The position numbers were made by a program, and so were the translations under genes. A stretch of DNA of 39,957 bases from an uncultured Pseudomonadota bacterium (GTDB lineage: Bacteria; Desulfobacterota; Binatia; Binatales; Binataceae): contig CALAOW010000129.1 of assembly GCA_937889395.1 (NCBI GenBank), positions 1 through 39,957 of the forward strand, read 5' to 3'. The notes beneath the pieces are model-generated. The model was not told the origin of the DNA. It saw nothing but the letters and a program-made list of their open reading frames with translations, and searched no databases. Of the stretch, positions 8,121 through 12,724 are shown one piece after another (position 1 is the stretch's first letter; each line of letters opens with the position of its first letter).

Positions 8121-8928
8121 GCTCGGGCTCATCGCGGGCAACGGCGTCTTCCCGCTCGAAGTGGCGCGCGCCGCACGCGAGCGCGGAATAAAAATCATCG
8201 CCGTCGCGCACCTCAATGAAAGCGATCGCGCACTTGACTCGGTGGCCGACGAAGTAACCTGGATCAAAGTCGGCGAGCTGCAGAAAATAGTCGACGTTTT
8301 CAAAAATGCCGGAGTCTCGGAAGCCGCGATGGCCGGCGGCATCTCACGCGCGCGGCTGAAAGATTCTTTCGCGCCCGACGCGCGCGCGCTTAAGATGCTG
8401 GCGGGAATCGGACGCTTCAGCGACGACGCTGTGCTCCGCGGCGTCGCGCGTGAAGTCGAAACCGAAGGAATCAAAATGATCGATCCGATCCCGATGATCG
8501 AGCATTGGCTCGCGCGCGCCGGCGTCGGCGCCGGACCCGAGCCGACTCCCGCGCAAATCCGCGATCTCGAGCTCGCATTCGCGGTCGCGCGCCGGCTCGG
8601 CAGCTATGACATCGGCCAGACGGTCGCGGTCCGCGACGGGATGGTCGCTGCGGTGGAAGCGCTGGAAGGAACGGACGCCGCGCTGCGCCGCGCAGCCGGG
8701 CTGGTGGGCGCGGGCCTGGTGGTGGCCAAGGCGGCCAAACCGGGCCAGGACATGCGCTTCGATCGCCCCGCGATTGGCCCGGCTACGGTGCAATTGCTTG
8801 CCGAGATCGGCGCGGCGATGTTAGGCGTCGAAGCTGAGGTTGCGCTGATTCTCGAACGCGAGCGCACGCTCGAGCTCGCGTGCGCGAAAAACGTGACGTT
8901 ATACGGCTATGCGGAAACCAGTGGTTGA
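8113..8928 (+). CDS. lpxI: UDP-2,3-diacylglucosamine diphosphatase LpxI
   Basis: Hydrolyses UDP-2,3-diacylglucosamine to lipid X and UMP. It is the LpxI (DUF1009) alternative to LpxH, typical of alpha- and deltaproteobacteria. The 271 residues include the N-terminal KLGLIAGNGVFPLEVARAAR and a VAMAGGISRARL-like turn (EAAMAGGISRARL). The C-terminal domain contains GQTVAVRDGMVAAVEALEGT followed by an Asp/Arg-rich stretch and VVAKAAKPGQDMRFDRPAIG, the conserved catalytic region. It starts at a GTG inside the end of lpxA (8-base overlap) and overlaps the next gene by 20 bases, indicating tight coupling within the lipid A operon. Confidence 0.93.
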   Translation: MNKLGLIAGNGVFPLEVARAARERGIKIIAVAHLNESDRALDSVADEVTWIKVGELQKIVDVFKNAGVSEAAMAGGISRARLKDSFAPDARALKMLAGIGRFSDDAVLRGVAREVETEGIKMIDPIPMIEHWLARAGVGAGPEPTPAQIRDLELAFAVARRLGSYDIGQTVAVRDGMVAAVEALEGTDAALRRAAGLVGAGLVVAKAAKPGQDMRFDRPAIGPATVQLLAEIGAAMLGVEAEVALILERERTLELACAKNVTLYGYAETSG

Positions 8929-9871
8929 GCTGCGCGCCGCAGTGATTGGCGCGGGCCGCCTGGGCACCTTGCACGCGCGCAAGTACGCCGCCATTTCGGG
9001 AATCAAGCTCGTACACGTCGTCGATATCGACGCCGAGCGGGCGCGAGCCGTAGCGACGGAAGTGGGCGCGACGCCGCTGGCCGATTACCGGATGCTGGCG
9101 GGCAAGGTGGACCTCGTGACGGTCGCGTCGCCCGGCGTGACGCATCATGAGATCGCATCCGCGATGCTGAAATCGGGCATCGACGTGCTGCTGGAAAAGC
9201 CGATGGCCGAGACGCTGGTGCAGGCGCGTGAACTGGCCACGCTGGCGTCGACGAGCGGCCGCATTCTTCAGATAGGCCACCTCGAGCGGTTCAATCCGGC
9301 GGTCGTTCATCTGCATTCGATCGTGAAAAATCCCCGCTTCGTGGAATGCCATCGGCTCGCGCCGTTCACCGAGCGCGGCACCGACGTAGATGTGGTGCTC
9401 GATCTGATGGTGCACGACCTCGACGTGATCCTGTCGGTGGCGCCATCCGAAGTCGCGTCGCTCGAGGCGGTTGGGGTCGCGATCCTTACCGATCGAATCG
9501 ACCTCGCCAACGCGCGCATCCGCTTCCGGAGCGGTCTCATCGCAAATCTGGTCACCAGCCGCGTGTCGGCCCGGCGCGAACGCAAGATTCGCTTCTTCCA
9601 GCCCGACGCATACCTCTCGGTTGACTACGAGGCGCGCAGCATCCAGATGTATCGCAAAACTCCGCCGGCGCCGGGCGCTCAGTTCCCCACCATTTCGGCG
9701 GAGCAGATCGATTTCGGCGAAGGCGATCCGCTCGCCGACGAAGTCAATGCGTTCGTCGCGGCAGTTCGCAGCAGGTCCACACCGGCCGTCAGCGCCGAGG
9801 ACGGGCTTCGCGTGATGGAACTAACCGAGAGAATCAAGGAAGTGATGCTGACGGATTCGGTCGCGCCTTGA
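8909..9871 (+). CDS. Gfo/Idh/MocA-family NAD(P)-dependent oxidoreductase
   Basis: Predicted sugar or nucleotide-sugar dehydrogenase acting in envelope glycolipid synthesis. The 320 residues start with a Rossmann motif AVIGAGRLGTLHARKYA. The family motif LLEKPMAET provides the catalytic Lys, and the substrate domain contains GHLERFNPAV and VDVVLDLMVHDLDVILS, with a conserved HDLD. It overlaps lpxI by 20 bases, so it belongs to the lipid A operon. In some bacteria a Gfo/Idh enzyme (GnnA) oxidises UDP-GlcNAc at C3 for 2,3-diamino lipid A. That needs an aminotransferase (GnnB), which is not in the window, so the substrate is not assigned. The same gene order is familiar in deltaproteobacteria. 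Confidence 0.85.
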   Translation: MRKPVVELRAAVIGAGRLGTLHARKYAAISGIKLVHVVDIDAERARAVATEVGATPLADYRMLAGKVDLVTVASPGVTHHEIASAMLKSGIDVLLEKPMAETLVQARELATLASTSGRILQIGHLERFNPAVVHLHSIVKNPRFVECHRLAPFTERGTDVDVVLDLMVHDLDVILSVAPSEVASLEAVGVAILTDRIDLANARIRFRSGLIANLVTSRVSARRERKIRFFQPDAYLSVDYEARSIQMYRKTPPAPGAQFPTISAEQIDFGEGDPLADEVNAFVAAVRSRSTPAVSAEDGLRVMELTERIKEVMLTDSVAP

Positions 9872-9905
9872 CGCTTGCTGTCCGCTGCGACAGCATCGAT
9901 TTGTG

Positions 9906-10355
9906 ATGCGTCCGATCAGGCTCAAGATTCTCGGCGGTCTGGTGCTCGCAGCCGGCGCCGCCGCGTTTCTCATCTTCATCGCGACCTCAGATTGCACAAC
10001 CGTGACCGGCAGCGACGAAGTCGTTGTCAACGTGTCCGCGATGCGTCCCGGTAGCGCGCGGCTTTTCTCTTACACCGATGACGCAGGCAAGCGGCTGCGC
10101 TTCGTGCTCGCGCGCGGGGTCGATGGCAAGATGCGCTCGGTGTTCGACGCATGCCGCCAGTGCTTCGCGTTCCATCGCGGCTACCGGGTCGTTGGCGGCG
10201 AACTGATTTGCCGGGTGTGCGGGAATCACTACCCAATCGATCGGATGACTGAAGGCAAAGCGTCGTGCGTGCCCGTCAGCTTGCCGCACGAAGACGATTC
10301 CGGAATCGTACGCATCAAGACCGCAGACCTTAAAGCCGGAGATTCGCTCTTTTGA
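9906..10355 (+). CDS. DUF2318-like cysteine-rich membrane-anchored protein
   Basis: About 149 residues. An N-terminal hydrophobic anchor (LGGLVLAAGAAAFLIFIATS) is followed by a small extracytoplasmic domain. Two CxxC pairs, CRQC and CRVC (about residues 83-86 and 102-105), and a further Cys in KASCVPV match the DUF2318 (PF10080) pattern, annotated as a predicted Fe-S or metal-binding domain often linked to FTR1-type iron permeases. No permease domain is fused here. A GTG immediately precedes the chosen ATG and is an alternative start. It lies 34 bases after the Gfo/Idh gene and just before a SCO-type lipoprotein, which suggests a role in metal or thiol handling outside the cytoplasm. The exact function is unknown. 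Confidence 0.75.
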   Translation: MRPIRLKILGGLVLAAGAAAFLIFIATSDCTTVTGSDEVVVNVSAMRPGSARLFSYTDDAGKRLRFVLARGVDGKMRSVFDACRQCFAFHRGYRVVGGELICRVCGNHYPIDRMTEGKASCVPVSLPHEDDSGIVRIKTADLKAGDSLF

Positions 10356-10379
10356 CTATCTGAGTAGCTATAGCAAGAT
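10352..10379 (+). promoter_or_regulatory. Possible promoter for the SCO/PCYCGC pair
   Basis: TTGACT at 10352-10357 is followed after 16 bases by CAAGAT (10374-10379) in a conspicuously AT-rich patch compared with the GC-rich surroundings. The -35 overlaps the stop codon of the upstream gene. The -10 match is poor, so this is tentative. Confidence 0.3.
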
Positions 10380-10401
10380 CATTTACCAGTAGGGATATAG
10401 T

Positions 10402-10992
10402 ATGAGTATTCACCGTAATCTCATATCACTCACCATTGTCGTACTAATAATGTCGAGCCTGTTCGCGGCTGCTGGATGCCACCGCGACTCAACCGCGGCC
10501 GCCTCGAGCTGCCTCACCGACACCAAGCTCGTCGATCAGAATGGCAACCAGGTCTCGCTCGCGTCGCTCAAGGGCAAACCGCTGGTGGTGGATTTCATCT
10601 ATACTTCGTGCCCGGGGGAGTGCCGGATGGAGACGGCGAAGTTGGCAAACGTCGCGCTCCGGCTGGGGCCCGACCTCGGTTCGAAGGTCACGATCGTTTC
10701 GATCAGCGTCGATCCCGAGCATGACGGCCCCAAGCAGTTGCTCGATTACGCACGTCAGCAGGGGGCGGACGAGAAAGGATGGTATTTCCTGACCGGAAGT
10801 CCCGGAGACATCGATAAAGCGCTGGCGGGCTTCAAGCTCATCCGGCAAGTCATGCCGGACGGTTCGATCGGCCACCTGGTCGATATGATGCTGATCGGAC
10901 CGGATGGGCGGTTGGTGCGTGAATACAACGGCGAAATCGTAAAAGCCCAGGATATCGTCGATGACCTCAGAAAGACCCTGAACAAGGGTTGA
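10402..10992 (+). CDS. SCO1/SenC family lipoprotein (copper chaperone / thiol reductase)
   Basis: Thioredoxin-fold lipoprotein. SCO proteins deliver copper to, or reduce, the CuA site of cytochrome c oxidase. The 196 residues start with a lipoprotein signal ending LFAAAGC (lipidated Cys26). The copper-binding CxxxC is in YTSCPGECRMET (Cys70 and Cys74), and the third ligand His158 is in GSIGHLVDMMLIGPDG. The core strands KPLVVDFIYTSCPG and VTIVSISVDPEHDG are typical. Thus all three metal ligands are present. It is sandwiched between the DUF2318 gene and a PCYCGC-type gene, all within the lipid A operon. No oxidase subunit is nearby, so the client is unknown; peroxiredoxin-like roles are possible. 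Confidence 0.9.
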   Translation: MSIHRNLISLTIVVLIMSSLFAAAGCHRDSTAAASSCLTDTKLVDQNGNQVSLASLKGKPLVVDFIYTSCPGECRMETAKLANVALRLGPDLGSKVTIVSISVDPEHDGPKQLLDYARQQGADEKGWYFLTGSPGDIDKALAGFKLIRQVMPDGSIGHLVDMMLIGPDGRLVREYNGEIVKAQDIVDDLRKTLNKG

Positions 10993-11002
10993 GAGATGCA
11001 GC

Positions 11003-11467
11003 ATGAGACGAGCAATCATTTTCGGCTCCTCGGTTGCGGCGATTCTGGCGCTGGCATATCTGTGGCCGTCGTTCGGCGCTTCATCGGCGGAGAATGGCGG
11101 CGCGCGCGGGACGATGTGCATCGCGGGTCATTGCTGCTGCGCGGGGCGGGCGGAGGCACAGACCGTCGCGGCCAACGCGGCGCAGGGGCGTTTGACGCTC
11201 GATCCAAACCAGTTCATCGGTCCGGTAAAGCAAGCGTACAGAGTTGCGGAGAAACATCCCGCGCTACTGGCGGAACTGCATTGCTATTGCGGATGTGACA
11301 AGGCGGACGGTCATCAGAATCTGCTCGATTGTTATCGCGGCCGCCATGGCGCGACCTGCGAAATCTGCACCGAGGAGGCCTTGCTGGCGCAACGGATGTC
11401 GGAGCAGGGTTCACCGCTCGATCAGATACGCGACGCGATCCGCAGGCGGTTCGCTTCCGACAACTGA
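11003..11467 (+). CDS. PCYCGC-motif cysteine-rich exported protein
   Basis: 154 residues with an N-terminal export signal or anchor (AIIFGSSVAAILALAYLW). Ten cysteines lie in two clusters: MCIAGHCCC (Cys39, 44-46) and HCYCGCDKADGHQ (Cys94, 96, 98), then Cys110 and CEIC (Cys119, 122). The second cluster corresponds to the PCYCGC domain (PF13798, function unknown), with His replacing the leading Pro. The His and Cys density suggests binding of a soft metal such as copper. It starts 10 bases after the SCO gene, so the two are co-transcribed. Family members usually sit in exported or lipoprotein contexts. The role is inferred only from neighbours. Confidence 0.75.
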   Translation: MRRAIIFGSSVAAILALAYLWPSFGASSAENGGARGTMCIAGHCCCAGRAEAQTVAANAAQGRLTLDPNQFIGPVKQAYRVAEKHPALLAELHCYCGCDKADGHQNLLDCYRGRHGATCEICTEEALLAQRMSEQGSPLDQIRDAIRRRFASDN

Positions 11468-11521: not shown

Positions 11522-12724
11522 ATGCCATTGAATGCCGAAGCGCCACCGCCGCTCGATGAACGCCTGAAAGAGACCGCACGCGGGCGCCGCATCATGATTG
11601 TTGCGGGCGAGGCGTCGGGCGACCTTCATGGCGGCGATTTGGCGCGGGAAATTCTCGCGCGCGATCCGTCGTGCGACCTGTTCGGAATTGCGGGCGAGAA
11701 GATGCGCGCGGCCGGGGTGCGGGCGATCGTCGCGACGGAGGACATCCACGGGCTGGGACTTTTGGAACTGGCTTCCACGATTGGGCGCACGATTGGTGCG
11801 TTTCGCGCACTGCGTCGAATCATCAGGCGGGACAAGCCGGACCTTGTGATCCTGATTGACTACGCGGAGTTCAACCTCATTCTCTCCGGCACGGCCAGGC
11901 GCGCCGGCGTGCCGGTGCTCTACTACATCACGCCGCAAGTCTGGGCGTGGCGGCGCGGCCGAATCGACAAGCTGGTGGATCGCGCGGGCCGCCTCGCGGT
12001 GGTGCTGCCGTTCGAGGCCGAACTATTCCATAGCGCGGGCGAGCGCGTTTCATTCGTAGGGCATCCGCTGCTCGATCGGGTCACCACGGTCCAGAGCCGG
12101 GAGGAGACGCTGAAGCGCCATGGATTCCCGCCGCGCGCGCGAATCATCTCGATCCTGCCAGGCAGCCGGCGCGCCGAAGTTCGCTACCTGCTGAATCCGA
12201 TGGTCAAGGCGGCGCGGATTGTCGCGCGCGATCACGGCCTTGAAATAGCGCTCGCGCTGGCGCCGACCCTGACCCAGGCCGAACTCGCCGAGGTTGGACG
12301 TACGGACCTGGCGGGAATCAGGATTGTCGAGAGCGACACATACAACGTTGTCGCGGCGAGCGAACTCGCGCTGGTCGCGTCGGGGACCGCCACGCTGGAG
12401 ACGGCGCTGCTCGGATGCCCCGAAGTAATCGCCTACAAAGCGTCGCCACTTACCTATATCCTAGGGCGAATGCTGGTCACGGGAGTGGATTTTATCGGGA
12501 TGCCGAATATCCTGGCGGGCCGGCAAATCGTGCCGGAACTGATCCAGGGCGATGTGACTGCGGAGAAGCTGGTACGAGCCGCCGAGCCGCTTTTGAGCGA
12601 CACGATACGCGTGGAAACGGTGGCCGCGCTGAAGGCATTGCGCGAGAAGCTCGGATCGCCGGGAGCCGCGGGACGAGTCGCGGCGATCGCGCTCGAGATG
12701 ATCGGATCGAAGATGACCGCATGA
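11522..12724 (+). CDS. lpxB: Lipid-A-disaccharide synthase LpxB
   Basis: GT19 glycosyltransferase that joins UDP-2,3-diacylglucosamine and lipid X to form the lipid A disaccharide. 400 residues. Conserved stretches are IMIVAGEASGDLHGGDLA, GLGLLEL, YYITPQVWAWRRGRI, SFVGHPLLDRV, ISILPGSRRAEVRYLLNPM, LVASGTATLETALLGCPEV and GMPNILAGRQIVPELIQ. The motif usually written DxPDFN reads DYAEFN here. The first ~20 residues before GRRIMIV are a non-conserved extension. The stop overlaps the msbA ATG by four bases (ATGA). Confidence 0.95.
   Translation: MPLNAEAPPPLDERLKETARGRRIMIVAGEASGDLHGGDLAREILARDPSCDLFGIAGEKMRAAGVRAIVATEDIHGLGLLELASTIGRTIGAFRALRRIIRRDKPDLVILIDYAEFNLILSGTARRAGVPVLYYITPQVWAWRRGRIDKLVDRAGRLAVVLPFEAELFHSAGERVSFVGHPLLDRVTTVQSREETLKRHGFPPRARIISILPGSRRAEVRYLLNPMVKAARIVARDHGLEIALALAPTLTQAELAEVGRTDLAGIRIVESDTYNVVAASELALVASGTATLETALLGCPEVIAYKASPLTYILGRMLVTGVDFIGMPNILAGRQIVPELIQGDVTAEKLVRAAEPLLSDTIRVETVAALKALREKLGSPGAAGRVAAIALEMIGSKMTA

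Follow-up and report, generated by a model that had tools for sequence, protein, structure and literature searches.

The window, the whole stretch of 39,957 nucleotides that was analysed, comes from a 2.75 Mb MAG of Candidatus Binatus, a soil Binatota bacterium of the same genus as genome G158. At 9906-11467 on its + strand lie genes for three proteins: an FtrD-like/DUF2318 protein, a SCO lipoprotein and a ten-Cys CYCXC (PF13798) protein. LpxA, LpxI and a Gfo/Idh oxidoreductase are encoded upstream of the trio, and LpxB, an MsbA-type ABC transporter and KdtA downstream. The Gfo/Idh gene forms the 5' flank of the slot, and a Gfo/Idh flank is found at 8 of the 26 FtrD loci discussed below. Successive intergenic gaps from Gfo/Idh to LpxB are 31, 46, 10 and 54 bp, no promoter-like site was found between 9700 and 11700, and the three reading frames have the codon-position GC typical of coding DNA. 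Coordinates, strand and Pfam matches thus agree with the original prediction of three small exported Cys-rich proteins running in the same direction within the Gfo/Idh-lpxB gap (Table 1). We infer that the location among lipid A genes provides the trio with its expression and not its function.

Table 1. Features of the Gfo/Idh-lpxB slot and its flanks, in window coordinates.
Feature	Position	Strand	Basis
Gfo/Idh/MocA oxidoreductase, UDP-GlcNAc 3-dehydrogenase-like	8909..9871	+	PF01408 E 5e-27; NF040723 match below cut-off
FtrD-like/DUF2318 protein (149-150 aa)	9903..10355 (start 9903/9906)	+	PF10080 E 2e-18
Deletion junction, 46 bp	10356..10401	+	comparison with G404, gene maps, G166 scar
SCO1/SenC lipoprotein, SCO-B clade (196 aa)	10402..10992	+	PF02630 E 4e-25
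CYCXC/OS_HP4 exported protein (154 aa)	11003..11467	+	PF13798 E 2e-11; NF041379 115.1 bits
LpxB, 3' flank of slot	11522..12724	+	PF02684 E 1e-88; TIGR00215 294 bits

The FtrD-like protein comprises an N-terminal membrane helix followed by a domain with the arrangement C83xxC86-x15-C102xxC105-x15-C121. It has six Cys, five of which are invariant among 34 sequences. Membership of PF10080 was judged by a profile score above the cut-off (66.7 bits against 26.3) together with the Cys pattern published for DUF2318, CxxC-x(13)-CxxC-x(14,15)-C (PMC6083913); the window protein belongs to the family, with a first spacer two residues longer than in the published pattern. When its AF2 model (pLDDT 87) was compared with known structures using VIA-align, Rieske proteins made up all 50 of the 50 matches listed, with Z up to 9.7 over 102 residues. 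The domain is therefore predicted to adopt a Rieske-like fold with four Cys. Rieske [2Fe-2S] proteins use two Cys and two His ligands (CxH...CxxH), whereas the FtrD-like domain has CxxC...CxxC, with each His replaced by Cys. The first Cys of its two CxxC motifs are 19 residues apart, the same step as between C46 and C65 of CarAc. Homology to Rieske proteins at the level of sequence was rejected, as the hhalign comparison (4.9%) scored 22.7 while shuffles reached 23.9, and thus the link comes from the fold prediction alone. PDB sequence searches with FtrD gave no convincing match.

The SCO protein has a lipobox Cys at C26, a CxxxC motif formed by C70 and C74, and a distal His at H158; it belongs to SCO1/SenC by profile, CxxxC and distal His, and it does retain both the Cys and the His ligands, as had been proposed. 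The closest solved structure is that of Bacillus subtilis Sco1 (1xzo, E 6e-23).

The third protein scores 115.1 bits against the CYCXC/OS_HP4 model NF041379, for which the curated cut-off is 90, and carries the core of CxCxC, C and C/UxxC that we required in addition. It was first described as a PCYCGC-type protein with ten Cys. The count is right, while the motif reads HCYCGC, and six of the ten Cys make up the conserved core of the family. Of 59 distinct relatives, 24 have UGA at the position of C119, and no other core Cys is replaced in this way, in agreement with the UxxC of the published selenoprotein OS_HP4 (PMC13188914). There is no in-frame UGA at this motif in the window protein, which shares the six core Cys of the selenoprotein family but has Cys119 in place of Sec. 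The Binatus copy among the lipid A genes differs further from that family in an extra N-terminal CxxxxCCC segment.

The CYCXC domain is helical and CcmH-like over residues 65-152 of the AF2 model. Aligned with CcmH by hhalign it gave 91% and a score of 43.7; the highest of 60 column shuffles scored 20.7. The window protein has no match to the CcmH family PF03918 at E 0.1, Foldseek returned nothing at E<=0.001, PDB sequence searches gave no convincing match, and the CcmH chain 2kw0 was matched only in a second look with VIA-align, weakly (Z 4.7). From the profile comparison we take CYCXC to be a distant relative of CcmH. In one genome (G058 C29) a single ORF (L040 6557-8065) encodes a CcmH-like segment (PF03918 E 9.5e-5), then what we read as a DUF1573-like segment, and a CYCXC domain at the C-terminus. 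At another locus (L029 1781-12776) a CYCXC gene is flanked by an Rnf-like operon on one side and by cytochrome c maturation genes (ResB/CcsA/TlpA/CcdA-like) on the other, these families being recognised by eye with the exception of a TPR protein. Elsewhere CYCXC genes occur in cytochrome c maturation/Rnf and DedA contexts and not in a copper context, a point against a copper role for the trio. In the Binataceae MAG JOPF038 the CYCXC copy adjoining SCO (L046 2115-2570) looks degenerate: it has lost core Cys and contains in-frame stops.

The combination of these genes had been put forward as a candidate for an undescribed functional unit, to be sought as a conserved triplet across genomes. FtrD was matched in 26 of the 118 genomes of the class Binatia, PCYCGC was matched in 49 and SCO in 113. 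FtrD, SCO and CYCXC are found together only in the genus of the window, in four of its seven genomes (the window's own genome G000, G166, G174 and G404), and in G404 other genes separate FtrD from SCO-CYCXC. G158, of the same genus, has kept FtrD-SCO and deleted CYCXC, and thus CYCXC is not essential to the set. Two genomes, G238 and G259, both from one genus of a second Binatia family, have a Sec-type CYCXC gene within 5 kb of a gene for an FTR1-FtrD fusion. Over 297 genomes of the phylum, just one outside the class has an FtrD/PCYCGC neighbourhood, with the genes ~4.9 kb apart on opposite strands. No conserved triplet was therefore seen outside the window's genus in either scan, and a widespread three-gene module was rejected. 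Being confined to one genus and, as set out below, arising by deletion, the triplet fails as a unit of its own; the conserved unit is a larger copper cluster.

That cluster, found in Binataceae, comprises genes for an FtrD-like protein, a small ICHP/DPPPP protein, an OM-like protein, CopC and CopD, and often SCO. CopC and CopD are both present within 5 kb and on the same strand at 15 of 26 Binataceae loci with a small FtrD gene. By our own estimate a random gene would lie this close to FtrD in about 0.3% of genomes of this size. Near the same 26 loci we found SCO at 13, the OM-like protein at 15 and CYCXC at 4, and the ICHP family is the commonest neighbour (19 loci). In the CopC copies the N-terminal His and the D-x-H residues are retained, as expected for a Cu(II) site. 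The small exported ICHP family (L045 3863-4237 and 20 homologues) has a conserved D-ICHP motif and a C-terminal PDPPPPK; a Pfam search with the ICHP protein and the OM-like protein returned no named family. In most Binataceae genera the cluster is located away from the lipid A genes. In G403, G404, G405 and G258, representing Binatus and one neighbouring genus, a fuller version lies between Gfo/Idh and LpxB.

The genome of the window contains two SCO genes. The second, on contig C134, is part of a cluster (L173 2548-6036) with genes for a ZIP transporter, an ICHP protein, an OM-like protein bearing the motif CACGCGVF, and a TlpA-like protein. In several Binataceae a different SCO gene is found about 2-6 kb from PmoA (G196 C24, G202 C40, G214 C8, G226 C61 and G189 C17).

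Comparison of the slot between relatives points to how the trio was formed. At the 46-bp junction between FtrD and SCO in the window, relatives have SCO-A, the small ICHP protein, the OM-like protein, CopC and CopD. In the SCO tree, the SCO-A copies that lie beside FtrD in G403, G404, G405 and G258 are separate from SCO-B, a clade of copies beside CYCXC in G404 and L046, and the window SCO falls inside SCO-B with support of 100/99. As it groups with SCO-B and not with the FtrD-adjacent SCO-A, the window has lost SCO-A through CopD, a block of five genes whose removal left FtrD next to SCO-B-CYCXC. G166 retains a scar of this event, in which the FtrD stop codon is followed by the start-codon region of SCO-A and then by a switch to the SCO-B leader. 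A second event is seen in G158, where the ATG of CYCXC runs straight into the final few codons of the gene, leaving a 3' stub. CopC is present in G403-G405 and absent from G000, G158, G166 and G174, and the branching order of the lipid A protein tree matches the inferred order of loss. A CYCXC paralogue exists in G158, and also in the genome of the window. The Gfo/Idh-lpxB gap has accepted unrelated insertions as well, an epimerase in G258 (L144) and a 269-aa ORF in G166 (L044). The latter, at 8672-9481 between CYCXC and LpxB, is sulfotransferase-like by eye.

The history of the slot also sets the trio apart from the Cop/Pco system. The ancestral cluster of the relatives shares with Cop/Pco a CopC with its His and D-x-H residues, and CopD. 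The window does not belong to that system, because the CopC-CopD block is missing from the slot, with neither gene between FtrD and SCO, and CopC is absent from the genome. We conclude that the trio is the reduced remnant of a Binataceae copper cluster that moved into the Gfo/Idh-lpxB gap; taken together with the relay function proposed below, this explanation has a probability of about 0.55.

The trio might instead be an accessory of iron uptake: the FtrD-like protein would aid the transport of ferrous iron, as happens in FtrABCD or FetMP-FetABCDEF, and SCO and CYCXC would be thioredoxin-like partners that play the part of FetE/FetF. DUF2318 genes are reported to fall almost always within Fet-type iron clusters (PMC6083913), and the thioredoxin-like FetE and FetF belong to the Fet system (PMC10783030). 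Those systems have the same DUF2318 domain with two CxxC and a fifth Cys, and thiol-disulfide partners nearby, and the FTR1-FtrD fusion near a Sec-type CYCXC gene in the second Binatia family is also in keeping with such a role. The window FtrD is, however, small and stands alone, and genes of its kind are placed with CopC, CopD and SCO or with SCO and CYCXC. Membership of FtrABCD/Fet would be marked by an adjacent FTR1 or Fet FtsX-type permease. At none of the 26 Binataceae loci with a small FtrD gene was either of them matched nearby, FtsX searches reaching only a distant LolC-like gene; the neighbours are CopC and CopD instead. An iron role is therefore unlikely. The published generalisation tying DUF2318 to iron does not hold in Binataceae, and as the domain reportedly occurs almost always in iron-uptake clusters, its copper context is a new variant. 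It is still less likely that the CopCD cluster feeds CuMMO/pMMO with copper and that the trio persists where CuMMO has been lost. Within Binatus PmoA is present in the CopC-keeping G403 and G405 and not in the four genomes that have lost CopC, which suggested a link, but across the family PmoA is found in 5 of the 15 genomes that have the FtrD-CopCD cluster and in 5 of the 12 that lack it, and the link was rejected on this count.

Non-functional leftovers, decaying since the CopCD block was removed, would also explain the deletion of the block and of CYCXC in G158, and the degenerate CYCXC copy in L046. Values of dN/dS for FtrD, SCO and CYCXC are 0.29-0.54 among close relatives and 0.16-0.31 against G404, higher than those of the neighbouring lipid A genes (about 0.08-0.34). 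Yet dN/dS is below 1 in every comparison, and in G000, G166 and G174 all three reading frames are unbroken and no ligand residue has been lost. The trio is thus under purifying selection, more relaxed than that on its lipid A neighbours, and we regard decay as fairly unlikely. Least probable of all is a thiol relay needed for the maturation of proteins of lipid A transport or of the envelope. The trio does sit within the lipid A operon, co-oriented, with short gaps and no internal promoter-like site. Against this, most genera carry these genes away from the lipid A operon, unrelated genes have also been inserted into the slot, and G158 has lost CYCXC with its lipid A genes intact. The suggestion of a metal-handling or thiol-relay module tied to envelope assembly is thereby divided. 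Its metal/thiol part is supported by the CopC-CopD-SCO cluster of relatives and by redox/metal Cys motifs in all three proteins, whereas the tie to the envelope is not supported, because the cluster is elsewhere in most Binataceae genera and the gap also takes unrelated genes. The association with lipid synthesis probably reflects no more than where the genes happened to land.

The most likely function of the trio would be, by analogy, a periplasmic thiol/electron relay supporting the copper loading of CuA oxidases by SCO. The three remaining proteins would stay active in the periplasm. Electrons would be passed on by the FtrD-like protein, which is anchored in the membrane and has a predicted Rieske-like fold with four Cys, and CYCXC, as a CcmH-like thiol oxidoreductase, would keep cysteines reduced. 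SCO would take up copper and load the CuA site of heme-copper oxidases encoded elsewhere, in the manner of TlpA-ScoI in Bradyrhizobium, where TlpA reduces ScoI and COX II (PMC6696091). It had been remarked that no cytochrome oxidase gene is nearby. This is true locally and does not extend to the genome, where heme-copper oxidase genes are found on three other contigs; two of these, the COX1 contigs C195 and C137, encode the CuA-type motifs CAELCGFGH/CAEFCGLSH. The trio resembles the TlpA-ScoI and CcmG/CcmH relays in having a SCO lipoprotein (CxxxC and His) beside a predicted exported thiol oxidoreductase. It differs from them in that the partner is CYCXC instead of TlpA, with an FtrD-like protein in addition, and in having no oxidase gene in the cluster.

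A more specific form of this proposal is that the three proteins make up a redox relay for copper loading of a kind not described before, in which the four-Cys Rieske-fold protein gives electrons and the CcmH-like protein, selenocysteine-dependent in relatives, reduces cysteines of SCO or CuA. This is tentative, and we would rate it as doubtful at present. If true, such a relay would be the first activity for PF13798 and would explain the Fe-S character proposed for FtrD. The locus illustrates how genes left behind by an insertion and a later deletion can mimic a functional module belonging to the lipid A operon. It places the DUF2318 domain in a copper cluster, against its published near-universal context of iron uptake. 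It also provides testable predictions for two domains of unclear function, a four-Cys Rieske-like site in FtrD and, for PF13798, a thiol oxidoreductase resembling CcmH in which Sec takes the position of one defined Cys.
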